Part shown: positions 2-9,472 of the stretch, in pieces
Layout of the letters: each line of letters opens with the position of its first letter
Position numbering within the stretch: position 1 is the stretch's first letter
Assembly (NCBI GenBank): GCA_017617145.1
Contig: JAFZWX010000156.1
Coordinates: 1-9,662, forward strand
Source of the DNA: Treponema sp.
Lineage (GTDB): Bacteria; Spirochaetota; Spirochaetia; Treponematales; Treponemataceae
Length of the DNA: 9,662 bases
Direction of reading: 5' to 3'
Made by a program: the position numbers and the translations under genes
Notes under the pieces: generated by a model
The model's input: the letters and a program-made list of their open reading frames with translations, nothing else
Told to the model about the DNA's origin: nothing
Databases searched by the model: none

Positions 2-3000
2 CCAAGTTTTGAACATGATAACTGTGGTATTGGTGCAGTTGTTAATATTGACGGAAGCAAAACTCATAAAATTGTTGATAATGCTTTAAGTATTGTAGAA
101 AAGCTTGAACACAGAGCCGGTAAAGATGCCAGCGGAGAAACAGGAGATGGTGTTGGTATTCTTGTCCAGATAAGTCATGATTTTTTTAAAAAAGCAGCAG
201 CAGATCTGGTTGGAAATCTTAATGAACGTGAGTATGGTATCGGGCAGTTTTTCTTTTCTGGTACTGCGGACACTGAAAAATCTCGTTTTGAAAAAGTTGT
301 TGCGGCAGAAGGACTTAAGTTTCTTGGCTGGCGCGAGGTTCCTGTAAATGCTGATGTTCTTGGTAAAAAAGCACGCGACTGTATGCCGCAGATCTGGCAG
401 GCCTTTATTGAAAAACCAAAGGATTGTGAAAAGGGGCTGGATTTTGACAGGAAGCTTTATATACTTCGTAGAGAATTTGAGAACGGGGCGTTGCGGGGTG
501 TCCCCGCTGGAGGGGGTAGTGAGCAACGAAGTGCGAGCGAGGGGGAGACTTCCCCCACTTATATCTGCTCTTTAAGCAGCCGTACGATTGTTTATAAGGG
601 AATGTTTCTGGTTCATGAACTGCGCACCTTCTACAGCGACCTGCAATCTGAAGATTATGCTTCGGCACTTGCGATTGTTCATTCGCGCTTTAGTACAAAC
701 ACACAGCCAAGCTGGAAACGTGCACACCCAAACCGATTTATTGCACACAATGGAGAAATCAATACAATTCGCGGAAATGTTGACCGTATGCTTGCGCGGG
801 AAGAAACTATTGCTTCTACAAAACTTTCTGCCAGCGATCTTAAAAAAGTTTTGCCTGCTGTAGATACAAGCGGTTCCGATTCTGCGATGCTTGATAATAC
901 ACTTGAATTCTTTTTGATGAACGGAGTTCCTCTTCCACTTGCAGTTATGATGTGTATTCCTGAACCTTGGAAGCATGACGACAATATGCCGGTTCATAAA
1001 AAGGATTTTTACCACTACTGGGCTACGATGATGGAAAGCTGGGATGGTCCTGCTGCAATTTTGTTCAGCGATGGAGATCTGCTGGGGGCAACATTGGACC
1101 GCAATGGTCTTCGCCCTAGCCGCTACTATATTACAAAAGACGGCATGCTCATTTTGTCGAGCGAGGTTGGTGTTCTTGATATTCCGGAAGAAAACATTAA
1201 AGTGAAGTCGCGACTACAGCCTGGTCGTATTCTTTTAGTTGATACTGTTCAGAAAAAAATTATAAGCGATGAAGAATGTAAGAATTACTATGCAGGACTT
1301 TATCCTTATGGCGAATGGCTTGATATGAATCTTGTTCATCTTGCCGATCTTAAGATTCCTAATAAAAAGATTCCTGTTCATACTCAGGAAGAACGAAATA
1401 TTTTGTACCGTGCTTTTGGCTGGAACTACGAAGATGTAAACGAAATGATTCTGCCAATGGCGCGCAATGGTGTAGAACCAACTGCAAGTATGGGTGTTGA
1501 TACTCCGCTTGCCGTAATGAGTGAAAAGCATCAGAGCCTGTTCAGTTATTTTAAGCAGCTTTTTGCTCAGGTTACTAACCCGCCGATTGACAGTCTGCGC
1601 GAAAAAATTGTTACAGACACAACAGTTTATGTTGGTAAAGACGGAAACATTTTAGAGCCTGCAGCAAAGAACTGCCGCGTACTCGAAATTAATAATCCGA
1701 TTTTGACAGGAACTGATTTGATTAAAATTGCAGCGTTGAATTCAAACGGACTTAAAGCTAAGACGATTTCTATTTTGTTTGAATCTAATCTTGCGGCAGC
1801 ACTCGACAATCTTTTTGCCCAGATTGACCAGGCTTACTCCGAAGGCTGCAATATCATAATCTTGAGCGACCGTGGAGTAGATAAAACTCATGCTGCTATT
1901 CCTGCAATTCTTGCCGTGTCTGCTGTTGAACAGTATTTAATCCGTACAAAAAAGCGTACTGCTGTTTCCATTATTCTTGAAACTGCAGAAGTACGCGATG
2001 TTCATCAGGCTGCTATGTGTCTTGGTTATGGTGCCCGTGCAATTAACCCTTACCTGGCACACGAAGCAATTGCCGAGCTCATTGACCAGAAGCTTTTGGA
2101 TAAGGATTATCATACAGCAATTGATGATTACAACAAGGCAATTATAAACGGCATTGTAAAGATTGCAGCCAAGATGGGTATTTCTACAATTCAGTCTTAC
2201 CAGTCTGCTCAGATTTTTGAAGCTGTTGGTATTGCAAGTGATGTTGTTGAAAAATATTTTACAAATACAGTCAGCCGCGTTGGAGGTGTTGGCCTTCGCG
2301 AAATTGAAGAAGATGTTCGTTATCATCATAATCAGGGCTTTGATCCTTCCGGTCTTACAGTAAATACACATCTTGATTCGGTTGGTAATCATAAGTTCCG
2401 TCGTGGACCACAGGCAGAAAGCCATCTTTATAACCCTGAAACAATTATTGCTCTGCAGCAGTCAACCCGTAACGGCGACTATGCACGCTTTAAGGAATAT
2501 ACTGCGTTAGTTGACTCTAACGATCATCCTCACACTTTGCGTGCCATGCTTGATTTTGATTTTGCAGCTGGTGGCGGCGAGATTCCGATTGACCAAGTTG
2601 AAAGCGTTGATGAAATTGTAAAACGCTTTAAGACTGGAGCAATGTCTTACGGTTCAATTTCTGAAGAAGCCCACAAGTGTATGGCAGCAGCAATGAATCA
2701 CCTGCACGGAAAATCAAACTCTGGTGAAGGTGGAGAAAAACCGGAGCGCCTTGGCACAGAATACAACAGCGCAATCAAACAGGTTGCAAGCGGACGATTT
2801 GGAGTTACAGAAGAATATCTTCTTAGCGCAAAAGAGATTCAGATTAAGATGGCTCAAGGAGCAAAACCTGGAGAGGGCGGACATCTTCCTGGTAAAAAGG
2901 TTTATCCATGGATTGCAAAGACACGTTATGCAACTCCGGGGGTAGCTTTGATTTCGCCTCCGCCTCATCATGATATTTATTCTATCGAAGACCTTGCACA

Positions 3001-4561
3001 GTTGATTTACGATTTGAAAAATGCAAACCGTGATGCACGTATCAGTGTAAAACTTGTTAGTGAAGCAGGTGTTGGTACAATTGCTGCCGGTGTTGCAAAA
3101 GCCGGTGCTCAGGTTATTTTGATTTCCGGACACGACGGTGGAACTGGTGCGGCTCCAATTTCTTCTATCCACCATGCAGGTTTACCTTGGGAACTTGGTC
3201 TTGCTGAAACTCACCAGACTTTGATTCAGAACGGCTTACGTGGTCGTGTTGTAATTGAAACAGACGGTAAGCTTATGAGCGGCCGTGATGTTGTAATTGC
3301 GGCTTTGCTGGGTGCAGAAGAGTTTGGTTTTGCGACTGCACCGCTAATTGCTATGGGCTGTTCTATGATGCGTGTATGCCAGCTTGATACCTGTCCGTTT
3401 GGTGTTGCAACCCAGAATGAAAAACTTCGTGCTAAGTTCCCTGGAAAGCCTGAATATGTAGAAAATTTTATGAAGTTTATTGCTCAGGAAATGCGAGAGA
3501 TTATGGCAAAGTTTGGAATCCGCACTGTAGAAGAACTTTGCGGCCGTACCGATTTGCTTAAGCTTAAGGATAAGCTGGGATTCAAGAGGGCTGGGCTTGT
3601 TGATATGAGCAGAGTGCTTGCTGCCGACGCTGAAAACAATTGGAAATCGGACCGCTCTCTGTTTGATTTCAAATTGGAAAAAACAGTTGATCTTACAAAA
3701 CTGGTTCCGGAATTTGAAAAGAATCATCGGGAGGCCCTTCGACAAAGCGCAGGGACCGCGGTTGCTATCCAATCCATCGACCGCACAGTTGGTACAATTC
3801 TTGGAAGCGAAATACAGAAAAAATACGGCAACACGCTTGCCGATGATACTTTCTGCGTAAACTTTGCAGGAGGAGCTGGTCAAAGTTTTGGTGCATTTAT
3901 TCCAAAGGGACTTACACTGCGACTCACAGGAGACGCAAACGATGCTTTTGGTAAAGGCCTTAGTGGCGGAAAGCTTGTAATTAAAAAGCCGGCTGATTTT
4001 GATGGCGACGCAGCTTCAAATATCATCGTTGGAAACGTAGCACTTTTTGGAGCTACCAGCGGTACAGCCTTTATAAACGGCGTTGCAGGTGAACGATTCT
4101 GTGTTCGTAACTCTGGTGCAACAGTTGTTGCCGAAGGTTGCGGAGATCACGGACTTGAATATATGACAGGTGGAACTGCTGTAATTCTTGGCGCCACAGG
4201 TAAAAATCTTTGTGCCGGAATGAGTGGCGGTGTAGCTTACGTGCTTGATGAAAATCACGACCTTTACAAACGTCTGAACCACGAGCTTGTAAAAATGTAT
4301 TCACTTGATGATGAAACGACAACGCTGCGCGATGCGGAGGACGAAGCTCTCTTGCATTCACTCATCCAGCAGCATGTAGACGAAACAGGCAGCCAGCGCG
4401 GTAAAGAAATTCTTGCAGACTGGCCGCACTACAAAACCTGCTTTAAGAAAATCATCCCTAATGACTACTTAAAGATTATTACAGAAATATATGCGGAAGA
4501 AGCCGCCGGTAAAGAATACGATGAAGCCGTATTAAATGCATTTAGAAAGTGTACAGCATAA
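2..4561 (+). CDS. gltB: Glutamate synthase (GOGAT) large/alpha subunit, 5' partial
   Basis: Makes two glutamates from glutamine and 2-oxoglutarate, with electrons supplied by GltD; cytoplasmic. The frame is open from base 2 to the TAA at 4559-4561 (1519 residues), so the gene runs off the left edge, probably by only a few codons, because the N-terminal nucleophile Cys of the glutaminase domain is residue 8 (HDNCGIG, codon 23-25). Numbering is from the first full codon. Glutaminase domain: about 8-400, with HSRFSTNT at 227 and IAHNGEIN at 247. FMN/synthase domain: GAMSYGSIS at 879, ISGHDGGTGAAP at 1041, and the 3Fe-4S cysteines C1120-x5-C1126-x4-C1131. A C-terminal GXGXG beta-helix follows at about 1270-1480. 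Residues 161-186, between REFE and YICSLSSRTIVYKGM, are foreign to the family and coincide with a DNA repeat. The reading frame is otherwise intact, so the protein is probably functional. First gene seen of a gltB-gltD-purF operon. Confidence 0.96.
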   Translation, partial: PSFEHDNCGIGAVVNIDGSKTHKIVDNALSIVEKLEHRAGKDASGETGDGVGILVQISHDFFKKAAADLVGNLNEREYGIGQFFFSGTADTEKSRFEKVVAAEGLKFLGWREVPVNADVLGKKARDCMPQIWQAFIEKPKDCEKGLDFDRKLYILRREFENGALRGVPAGGGSEQRSASEGETSPTYICSLSSRTIVYKGMFLVHELRTFYSDLQSEDYASALAIVHSRFSTNTQPSWKRAHPNRFIAHNGEINTIRGNVDRMLAREETIASTKLSASDLKKVLPAVDTSGSDSAMLDNTLEFFLMNGVPLPLAVMMCIPEPWKHDDNMPVHKKDFYHYWATMMESWDGPAAILFSDGDLLGATLDRNGLRPSRYYITKDGMLILSSEVGVLDIPEENIKVKSRLQPGRILLVDTVQKKIISDEECKNYYAGLYPYGEWLDMNLVHLADLKIPNKKIPVHTQEERNILYRAFGWNYEDVNEMILPMARNGVEPTASMGVDTPLAVMSEKHQSLFSYFKQLFAQVTNPPIDSLREKIVTDTTVYVGKDGNILEPAAKNCRVLEINNPILTGTDLIKIAALNSNGLKAKTISILFESNLAAALDNLFAQIDQAYSEGCNIIILSDRGVDKTHAAIPAILAVSAVEQYLIRTKKRTAVSIILETAEVRDVHQAAMCLGYGARAINPYLAHEAIAELIDQKLLDKDYHTAIDDYNKAIINGIVKIAAKMGISTIQSYQSAQIFEAVGIASDVVEKYFTNTVSRVGGVGLREIEEDVRYHHNQGFDPSGLTVNTHLDSVGNHKFRRGPQAESHLYNPETIIALQQSTRNGDYARFKEYTALVDSNDHPHTLRAMLDFDFAAGGGEIPIDQVESVDEIVKRFKTGAMSYGSISEEAHKCMAAAMNHLHGKSNSGEGGEKPERLGTEYNSAIKQVASGRFGVTEEYLLSAKEIQIKMAQGAKPGEGGHLPGKKVYPWIAKTRYATPGVALISPPPHHDIYSIEDLAQLIYDLKNANRDARISVKLVSEAGVGTIAAGVAKAGAQVILISGHDGGTGAAPISSIHHAGLPWELGLAETHQTLIQNGLRGRVVIETDGKLMSGRDVVIAALLGAEEFGFATAPLIAMGCSMMRVCQLDTCPFGVATQNEKLRAKFPGKPEYVENFMKFIAQEMREIMAKFGIRTVEELCGRTDLLKLKDKLGFKRAGLVDMSRVLAADAENNWKSDRSLFDFKLEKTVDLTKLVPEFEKNHREALRQSAGTAVAIQSIDRTVGTILGSEIQKKYGNTLADDTFCVNFAGGAGQSFGAFIPKGLTLRLTGDANDAFGKGLSGGKLVIKKPADFDGDAASNIIVGNVALFGATSGTAFINGVAGERFCVRNSGATVVAEGCGDHGLEYMTGGTAVILGATGKNLCAGMSGGVAYVLDENHDLYKRLNHELVKMYSLDDETTTLRDAEDEALLHSLIQQHVDETGSQRGKEILADWPHYKTCFKKIIPNDYLKIITEIYAEEAAGKEYDEAVLNAFRKCTA
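485..556 (+). repeat. Palindromic repeat inserted in frame in gltB (copy A)
   Basis: GC-rich segment of about 72 nt (24 codons) inside the glutaminase domain of gltB. It matches, in inverted orientation, the segment at about 9394-9472. The best core is 513-556 against 9396-9439 reversed: 39 of 44 bases identical, and all five differences are transitions. It has two hairpins: 493-498 with 502-507 (6 bp, loop TGT) and 541-546 with 551-556 (6 bp, loop GACT). It is translated as a Gly/Ser/Glu-rich stretch including RGVPAGGGSEQRSASEGE, with no counterpart in GltB proteins I recall, where this loop is only a few residues long. The exact ends are uncertain by a few bases. A mobile, RPE-like element is inferred from the two copies and the structure; no target duplication is evident. 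Confidence 0.85.
3733..3757 (+). repeat. Short hairpin repeat-like segment within gltB
   Basis: A 25-nt stretch with short inverted ends: CCCT at 3735-3738 pairs with AGGG at 3751-3754, flanked by GG/CC with one bulged A. It differs by about two edits from a motif I recall as dispersed in several bacterial genomes (CCCTTCGACAAGCTCAGGG). It codes for ALRQSAGT in the linker before the C-terminal GXGXG domain, and includes CGA and GGG codons that are less common in the rest of the gene. There is no second copy in this window, so a repeat origin rests on memory of the motif. It may be ordinary coding sequence. Confidence 0.35.
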
Positions 4562-8205: not shown

Positions 8206-9372
8206 TTAAAATCCAAGTACATCCTTAATGAATTGACTATTCTCAGCGATTTTCTTAGCAGAATCCAGAGTATCAGGTAAAGTTGGAAGCTTGCTGTCAT
8301 TTTCAAACAGGTTTTCTTTTACTGGCTCTGGTGGCACCAGATTATTTTTAATTCCGTCAAGGGCGGCATAAATCAAAAGTGTGAAAACTATATATGGATT
8401 ACATTCGCTGTCTGGAGTACGGATTTCCATGCGGCTTGCATCATCACTTGTAATTGCCGGAACGCGTATAAAAGTTGAACGGTTTTCGCGGCCCCAGGCA
8501 ATATAGTGTGGTGCCTTACAAGAACCAAGTCTGTCATAAGAAGCTTCAGCACAGTTCATATAATAAGTAAGCTCCTGGGCATGTTTTAAAATACCTGCAA
8601 GTACATTTTGTTTTTTAGAAACATCGGAGCACGAAATATTAATATGAAAACCACTGCCTGGTTTATCGGCAATAGGCTTTGGAGAAAAATCGGCATAAAG
8701 GCCTGCACTTGCGGCACGGGTTCTTACAATCCACTTAAAAGTTGCGGCATTGTCGGCGGCAGTAAGGGCATCGGAGTGGTGAAAGTCAATTTCATTCTGA
8801 CCAGGGCCTTCTTCGTGATGACTTGATTCCGGCTGAATACCCATCTGTTCCAGAGTAAAACATATTTCACGTCGAATATTTTCACCCTTGTCTTCTGGGG
8901 CAATATCCATGTAACCTGCATTATCAAAAGGAATATTTGTAGGCTCGCCTTTTTCGTCCAGCTTAAAGAGGTAAAATTCTATTTCTGTACCAAAACTAAA
9001 ATCAATGCCAAATTCATTTCGGGCTTTTTTTACAGCATTTGCAAGCAGGGTGCGGCAGTCTTTTTTATAAGGAGTTCCATCTGGATAAGAGATAGTACAG
9101 AACATGCGCACAACCTTTCCGGTGTTAGGTCTCCACGGAAGAATCGCAACAGTTGTAGGATCCGGGTGCAGGAACAGGTCAGATTTTTCCGGGGTTTCAA
9201 AACCGTAAACTGCAGAGGCATCAAAATTCATGCCGTTTTTAAAAACGTTCTCAAGCTGACCAGCCATAATCGAAATATTTTTCTGAACGCCGCGCAAATC
9301 AAAAAAAGCCAGGCGCACAAATTTAACATCTTCTTCCTGAACATATTCCAGAACTTCTTCTACTGTGTACAT
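8206..9372 (-). CDS. glnA: Glutamine synthetase, short class I form
   Basis: ATP-dependent amidation of glutamate to glutamine. 388 residues, against about 440-470 for typical GSI. Landmarks: D51 (NFDASA, ammonium-site Asp), E130/E132 (GTEIEF), E187 and E194 (SSHHEEGPGQNEIDF), H243 (GSGFHI), R281, R298 and R303 (NRSTFIR), and E316/R318 (RMEIRTPD). Metal and substrate ligands are therefore kept. Two differences stand out. The position of the catalytic flap Glu (GYEAP in Salmonella or Bacillus GS) reads SCKAP, giving K286. The protein stops soon after LPDTLDSAKKIAENSQFIKDVLGF-type residues without the usual C-terminal tail of about 45 residues. There is no adenylylation Tyr loop. The ATG follows an AGAGG SD. 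Downstream partner: the ANTAR gene. I recall similar short GSI proteins in gut Clostridia and Treponema, so these traits may be typical of a subfamily. Canonical activity is likely but not certain. Confidence 0.93.
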   Translation of the reverse strand: MYTVEEVLEYVQEEDVKFVRLAFFDLRGVQKNISIMAGQLENVFKNGMNFDASAVYGFETPEKSDLFLHPDPTTVAILPWRPNTGKVVRMFCTISYPDGTPYKKDCRTLLANAVKKARNEFGIDFSFGTEIEFYLFKLDEKGEPTNIPFDNAGYMDIAPEDKGENIRREICFTLEQMGIQPESSHHEEGPGQNEIDFHHSDALTAADNAATFKWIVRTRAASAGLYADFSPKPIADKPGSGFHINISCSDVSKKQNVLAGILKHAQELTYYMNCAEASYDRLGSCKAPHYIAWGRENRSTFIRVPAITSDDASRMEIRTPDSECNPYIVFTLLIYAALDGIKNNLVPPEPVKENLFENDSKLPTLPDTLDSAKKIAENSQFIKDVLGF

Positions 9373-9393: not shown

Positions 9394-9472
9394 GAGGGGA
9401 AAGTCTTCCCCTCGCTCGCATTTCATTGCTCGCTACCCCTTCTAACGGGGGAGAGCCCCCGTAACACCCCCC
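9394..9472 (-). repeat. Palindromic repeat forming the glnA leader (copy B)
   Basis: Inverted copy of the element inserted in gltB. On the minus strand, hairpin 1 pairs 9456-9462 with 9445-9451 (7 bp, loop CTCT) and hairpin 2 pairs 9406-9413 with 9394-9401 (8 bp, loop GACT). The linker between them is the best conserved part. It fills most of the 113 nt between pyrG and glnA. In the frame used in gltB this copy would contain a TGA stop. No T-run follows either hairpin, so it does not look like an intrinsic terminator. Confidence 0.85.

Follow-up and report, generated by a model that had tools for sequence, protein, structure and literature searches.

A three-hairpin repeat dispersed in rumen Treponema genomes lies in frame in gltB and other genes and has kin on plasmids

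A 72-nt palindromic segment in the glutaminase domain of Treponema gltB very likely belongs to a family of dispersed three-hairpin repeats, non-autonomous and selfish in nature, that would be tolerated in genes only where they preserve the reading frame within a permissive loop. The window, i.e., the whole 9662-nt stretch of DNA analysed here, contains gltB (with its 5' end cut), gltD, purF, a reverse-strand ORF that had no match in NCBIfam, and glnA. Two copies of the element are present in it (Table 1).

Table 1. Coordinates of the genes, element copies and hairpins discussed in the text
Feature	Position	Strand	Basis and remarks
gltB, glutamate synthase large subunit	2..4561	+	truncated at its 5' end by the window edge, free of stops; Pfam GATase_2, Glu_syn_central, Glu_synthase, GXGXG
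Element copy 1 (72 nt), read in frame as the 24 residues 162-185 of the truncated gltB ORF, GALRGVPAGGGSEQRSASEGETSP	485..556	+	covariance model R1, 92 bits; ORF
Hairpin 1 (GCGGGG / CCCCGC)	493..507	+	structure counted on alignments A1 and A2
Hairpin 2, variable; GGGTA on its 5' side and G.A mismatches inside	519..538	+	structure on alignments
Hairpin 3 (GGGGGA / TCCCCC)	541..556	+	pairing in 99.8% of cells across the family
glnA, glutamine synthetase, downstream of copy 2	8206..9372	-	NCBIfam TIGR00653, 2e-103
Element copy 2 (75 nt), in noncoding DNA; 23 nt separate it from the glnA start	9396..9470	-	covariance model, 88.9 bits

The original prediction had placed the first copy at exactly the boundaries recovered by the covariance model, and its codons are indeed read in the gltB frame. 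It had also located a second copy in a noncoding leader at 9394-9472, which the model trimmed by two nucleotides at either end. In blastn the pair aligns over 75 nt with 80% identity (1.3e-12, 1.5-Mb database); it is also the longest inverted-repeat pair of the window. When folded as the sense strand of the element, neither copy was better than its shuffles (z of -1.17 for copy 1 and -0.66 for copy 2), and the opposite strand of copy 2 gave a z of -3.19. Consequently, the structural claim is based on covariation over the whole family rather than on the folding of the window copies. Rfam searches of the window returned no match at the gathering score, and lenient searches retrieved only matches far below the family cut-offs.

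Although two hairpins had been anticipated, three were counted on alignments A1 and A2. The unit, mostly 71-80 nt long, consists of GGGG-NN-TT, hairpin 1, a linker mostly ending in GGGTAG, hairpin 2 and hairpin 3, in that order. Hairpin 1 reads GCGGGG..CCCCGC, also TAGGGG..CCCCTA and others, and hairpin 3 takes forms such as GGGGAA..TTCCCC. Hairpin 2 is variable in length and sequence, making some copies longer; it often contains G.A mismatches, and its loop sometimes hosts another repeat. Covariation over the family supports this three-hairpin structure. Across 88 distinct copies, in an alignment fitted to the structure, 91.3% of cells were paired versus 78.9% in shuffled alignments, and the covariation score reached 0.307 versus 0.131; on each of the five covariation measures none of 500 shuffles attained the observed value. 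In the same fitted alignment both sides had changed in 14 of the 17 pairs, and the score dropped to 0.093 or less when the partners were slid. An unfitted alignment retained 89.7% pairing and a score of 0.248 versus 0.122 (0/500 shuffles as high); its double-change pairs were matched by 47 of 500 shuffles and its pair types by 487 of 500, so that neither of these two measures stands out. In the copies at L003:7417-7517 and L012:11771-11884 another repeat, of the GGTGGTTGAGC..GTCGAAAC type, is nested in hairpin 2, and the same type of nested repeat was deduced from the encoded peptide at L180:1801-1901.

The element family is dispersed in rumen Treponema genomes. Its distribution was examined in a gltB-locus set consisting of the window and the best 80 of 119 loci, mostly from rumen Treponema and mostly metagenome assemblies, which takes in the isolates T. 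bryantii XBD1002 (L020), NK4A124 (L007) and B25 (L032); the relatives of the window are rumen Treponema near T. bryantii. An iterated profile seeded with the two window copies located 86 copies, distributed over 44 of the 81 sequences, and a covariance model built from 43 of the profile copies gave 92 matches across the set. With 150 candidates scored per genome, the covariance model matched at least 37, 48 and 68 places in the three T. bryantii genomes, and it matched 16 in T. berlinense. At least one match was found in 56 of 100 family genomes, at most 49 candidates being scored in each, and four non-Treponema genomes had no match to model R1. Hence the expectation of further copies, inside and between genes, was borne out by dozens of them, counted in related genomes, and a dispersed palindromic family with copies in genes does exist in a spirochaete.

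To classify the copies by position, we fetched the surroundings of all 37 matches of XBD1002 and of 67 of the 68 matches of B25, those of NK4A124 being counted but not classified. The 104 model matches in these regions corresponded to 101 profile hits, about four of the matches not being found again by the profile, and removal of the second half of an interrupted copy (L159) left 100 copies. Under a rule requiring an ORF of at least 190 codons with at least 10 codons on either side of the element, a rule into which frame keeping is built, 26 copies lay in frame in ORFs (11 in XBD1002 and 15 in B25). Another 64 lay between ORFs, six were in short ORFs or no more than 10 codons from an ORF start, and in four a neighbouring ORF terminated inside the element, so that at most four of the 100 copies break a gene. 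Since the rough coding density of the sampled DNA is 0.874, element copies avoid genes. Separately, the ORFs that end in the element (L174, L164:1801, L179:1801 and L141:1802) may gain a C-terminus and a stop codon there.

Many of the hosts are housekeeping genes. Among the 24 host ORFs, 20 were run against NCBIfam and some against Pfam too, which identified the N and C halves of carB (separate ORFs), carA (two), purF, a pcrA/uvrD-type helicase, metH-like genes (two), mnmE, Uup-type ABC-F genes (two), indolepyruvate ferredoxin oxidoreductase alpha, an [FeFe] hydrogenase, and RqcH/FbpA-like, NUDIX, radical SAM and TraG/VirD4-like coupling proteins; the host ORFs L160, L115 and L159 had no family match in these databases. 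In the gltB-locus set, 28 of the 46 copies outside gltB fell in homologous ORFs by the rule, one of the 28 being a false call (the glnA-leader copy of the window, assigned to an antisense ORF over glnA). The open share of the six frames was 0.68 in genic copies, a set that includes this false call as well as orthologous copies representing non-independent events, against 0.556 in intergenic copies and 0.537 in shuffles of the same composition. The greater openness of genic copies is as predicted if selection weeds out those that interrupt genes. The intergenic frames, barely more open than the shuffles, give no sign of an element that evolved to be translated.

These distributions are consistent with a mechanism in which copies would land at many genomic places and those breaking genes would be lost, leaving mostly intergenic survivors. 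The survivors within genes would be open, frame-keeping inserts in loops that tolerate extra residues, and in GltB the element would add a flexible peptide to the loop that joins helix 146-165 to strand 186-192. Both the mobility of the element and its weeding by selection are presumed in this scheme.

The repeat unit is also found on plasmids. A typed consensus had blastn matches in 21 plasmid records, which in 19 cases spanned 80% or more of the consensus; these records are nearly all from Alphaproteobacteria, plus one Treponema plasmid. Phages had no match to the typed consensus, and viral contigs had none with the first pattern. The 35-nt part containing hairpin 1 matched 62 records, of which 33 were from Campylobacter. 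Among 26 fetched plasmid and viral-contig stretches, all picked through hits to the consensus or to hairpin 1, a profile match was obtained in 25, in four cases over only part of the unit, with hairpin 2 as the most divergent part.

This kinship raises the possibility, which we consider unlikely, that the unit is a functional nucleic-acid element (an element upstream of plasmid establishment genes, a single-strand promoter or priming site, or an RNA) that was brought by conjugative DNA and then multiplied in Treponema. Such a role is suggested by the position of the three-hairpin unit 85-87 nt upstream of an ArdC-type gene on seven alphaproteobacterial plasmids (L188, L189, L199, L205, L206, L207 and L211), the genes reading away from the unit and some of the ATG starts having been chosen by hand. 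The gene was recognized by Pfam ArdcN in L188, L199, L206, L207 and L211, and by its annotation as a zincin-like metallopeptidase in L189 and L205. Similar spacings separate the unit from a gene annotated as DUF932 in L202 (85 nt; no Pfam match) and, on two Caulobacter plasmids, from genes annotated as toprim (86 and 93 nt), and the unit occupies a single place in each of the 21 records matched by blastn. ArdcN genes are also present in L186 and L192, 41 nt from the unit with a chosen start, and L201 has a weak ArdcN match further off; the remaining stretches of the 25 had no such neighbour gene or could not be judged. A whole-record model search of seven plasmids gave one match in six of them and two weak ones in pVir.

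Several observations argue against this functional origin. The copy examined in pVir lies 3' of ardC rather than upstream, ArdcN was found in none of six Treponema genomes, and 71 intergenic Treponema copies showed no orientation bias (classes of 25, 25, 13 and 8). Moreover, the 90-nt leader between the unit and the gene is itself conserved, in 117 plasmid records and in up to five places each. Leader and unit together, used as a query, matched 130 records; 12 covered at least 80% of the query and, among the 60 listed of the 130, at least 13 more reached hairpin 1. The unit is thus an optional neighbour of the leader. The leader, at L205:2411-2500, is about 80-90 nt long and stands ahead of ArdC-type genes, among others, on alphaproteobacterial plasmids. 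Rfam, applied to 20 plasmid and viral loci, gave no family at cut-off for the leader or the unit, and only one tRNA.

The selfish-repeat reading presupposes some means of movement. In the nearest GltB pairs some host bases are replaced by the element, so that these pairs do not bear out simple insertion. We saw no target-site duplication and no empty site that was clean, even in the most favourable pairs, L033/L059 (95%) and L035/L045 (89%). No transposase could be linked to the element, and the ends of the copies, as read off them, have only GGGG...CCCC in common. One candidate route, which appears improbable, is that the copies are REPs mobilized in trans by a Y1 tyrosine transposase, or RAYT, with the GTAG before hairpin 2 as the guide tetranucleotide. 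By hand count, 36 of the 43 copies in A1 carry GTAG just 5' of the mismatched hairpin 2. The copies also lie near gene ends (medians of about 20 nt) and further from gene starts (medians of 53 and 73 nt), as passages of PMC3733652 describe for REPs. However, Y1_Tnp (PF01797) was found in none of the three T. bryantii genomes, the control detecting it in five of 14 genomes, and a unit mostly of 71-80 nt with three hairpins does not fit the 20-40 bp of a REP.

The history of the repeat can be followed in GltB, where 40 element copies were found in 30 of the 81 sequences, all 81 readings (some partial) being free of stop codons. Twelve of these copies are sense in phase 0, 11 sense in phase 1, 11 antisense in phase 0 and six antisense in phase 2; the sites used most lie around core positions 167, 584 and 1239, and one pair is found at 782. 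Contrary to the refuting outcome named with the original prediction, in which close relatives would all carry the same residues, the insert differs among them. At site 167 the element is in phase 0 in the window and in phase 1 in L001; the closest GltB relatives of the window, L054 and L031 (92% identical), carry two other palindromic inserts; two more kinds occur in L052 and L007/L020 (all these kinds being judged by eye); and L045/L047 have a short loop. Compared with the latter, the net gain is 20 residues and not the roughly 24 that had been proposed, since the element, while encoding 24, replaces part of the host loop. The loops of L054, L031, L012, L052, L007 and L020 that correspond to window positions 485-556 contain peptides such as DCRVKPDND, PSTGSGT, HAELVSAS..QVQGD and VVEC..ETT. 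Among the loop inserts compared singly, those of L012, L052, L007 and L020 recur elsewhere.

On a GltB tree of 76 of the 81 sequences, five short ones being left out, the 13 carriers at site 167 required nine changes (mean of 12.1 and minimum of nine in 300 label shuffles) and the 10 carriers at site 584 required seven (mean 9.6, minimum seven). At site 1239, 14 carriers required 12 changes (mean 13.0, minimum nine). There is therefore some inheritance at sites 167 and 584, where the observed changes equal the lowest of the 300 shuffles, and much turnover at all three sites.

This element accounts for 42 of the 103 GltB inserts of at least eight residues. In all, 80 of the 103 recur outside gltB, versus 17 of 400 gltB pieces drawn at random with comparable length. 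At least five loops of GltB contain repeat-derived inserts of several kinds. This repeated use of the same loops would suit an insert kept for a useful role in GltB, in binding or regulation; we regard such a role as very improbable, because one loop receives different peptides in different frames and near relatives are without the long insert. A naturally variable, low-complexity linker formed without mobile DNA, for which the 23 of 103 inserts lacking any repeat match might speak, is refuted for this insert and has practically no chance of being correct, since its DNA recurs in unrelated genes and between genes, in different frames and in both orientations, and shows covariation.

In line with the selfish-repeat interpretation, the insert is probably neutral for the enzyme. 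An AlphaFold model of GltB residues 1-440 had a mean pLDDT of 79, and residues 165-183, between helix 146-165 and strand 186-192, formed its longest stretch with a pLDDT under 50. Five sequences in the PDB were matched, and the insert is absent from both alignments shown (7mfm and 1llw).

Among known systems, the Rickettsia palindromic elements (RPEs) are the closest in behaviour. Passages of PMC2229807 describe RPEs and Wolbachia elements as dispersed both in intergenic DNA and, in frame, within conserved protein genes, a distribution that the Treponema repeat shares. Passages of PMC3767692 report that RPE-encoded peptides occupy solvent-exposed positions and that RPE-1 to -3 occupy similar sites in orthologues. 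In contrast, RPEs are 100-150 bp long, with a long stem-loop and terminal inverted repeats, whereas the Treponema unit is shorter, has three hairpins and varies in the middle one, and sister Treponema species carry different repeat families at one loop. Compared thus by behaviour, size and shape, the Treponema repeat appears RPE-like in behaviour, and we do not call it an RPE. The Rickettsia precedent invoked originally is therefore an apt working analogy, but not the sole one: according to passages of PMC3733652, REPs occur close to gene ends and in ORFs of several other bacteria, with UvrD/Rep helicase among the hosts.

The GTAG/CGTC-tagged REPs resemble the Treponema repeat in these respects and differ in their shorter unit, in its hairpin number and in their link to Y1_Tnp, absent from the three T. 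bryantii genomes. With Frpo and ssi single-strand promoters and sequences upstream of establishment genes, a possible likeness lies in the plasmid homologues upstream of ArdC-type genes, Frpo being placed upstream of leading-region genes in passages of PMC11541004; unlike them, the unit is GC-rich, and its Treponema copies are dispersed and unoriented. The passages of PMC11541004 and PMC8708921 describe no such unit. MITEs are likewise small, non-autonomous and dispersed, but their terminal inverted repeats of 15-30 bp have no counterpart here beyond GGGG/CCCC, nor was a target-site duplication seen in the pairs compared, none of which offered a close enough empty site. In titles and abstract starts of the open literature, subscription papers lying outside this search, we found no report of such a Treponema repeat or of the unit upstream of ArdC.

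Taken further, these results allow a tentative scenario, which we put forward as possible: a hairpin module beside establishment genes of conjugative plasmids, present in several phyla, may have become a genome-wide repeat in rumen Treponema that repeatedly entered genes in frame. It would have spread via single-stranded DNA without a classical transposase, and would keep supplying core enzymes with new loops, at positions that it shares with several other repeat families. In-gene palindromic repeats are now extended to rumen spirochaetes, and their kinship with a plasmid unit offers a clue to the origin of such repeats. Furthermore, with a large set of orthologues that have or lack the insert, and with cultured isolates, it becomes testable whether inserts of this kind are junk that the cell tolerates or raw material for new protein parts, GltB, CarA, PurF and PcrA being enzymes suited to this question.

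A shorter portion of the unit was observed on Campylobacter plasmids. Its first 24 nt are identical in pVir (L196:3001-3024) and 32 other Campylobacter plasmids, mostly in two places each; they comprise the GGGG box, hairpin 1 and one further base, and are followed by an AT-rich remainder.
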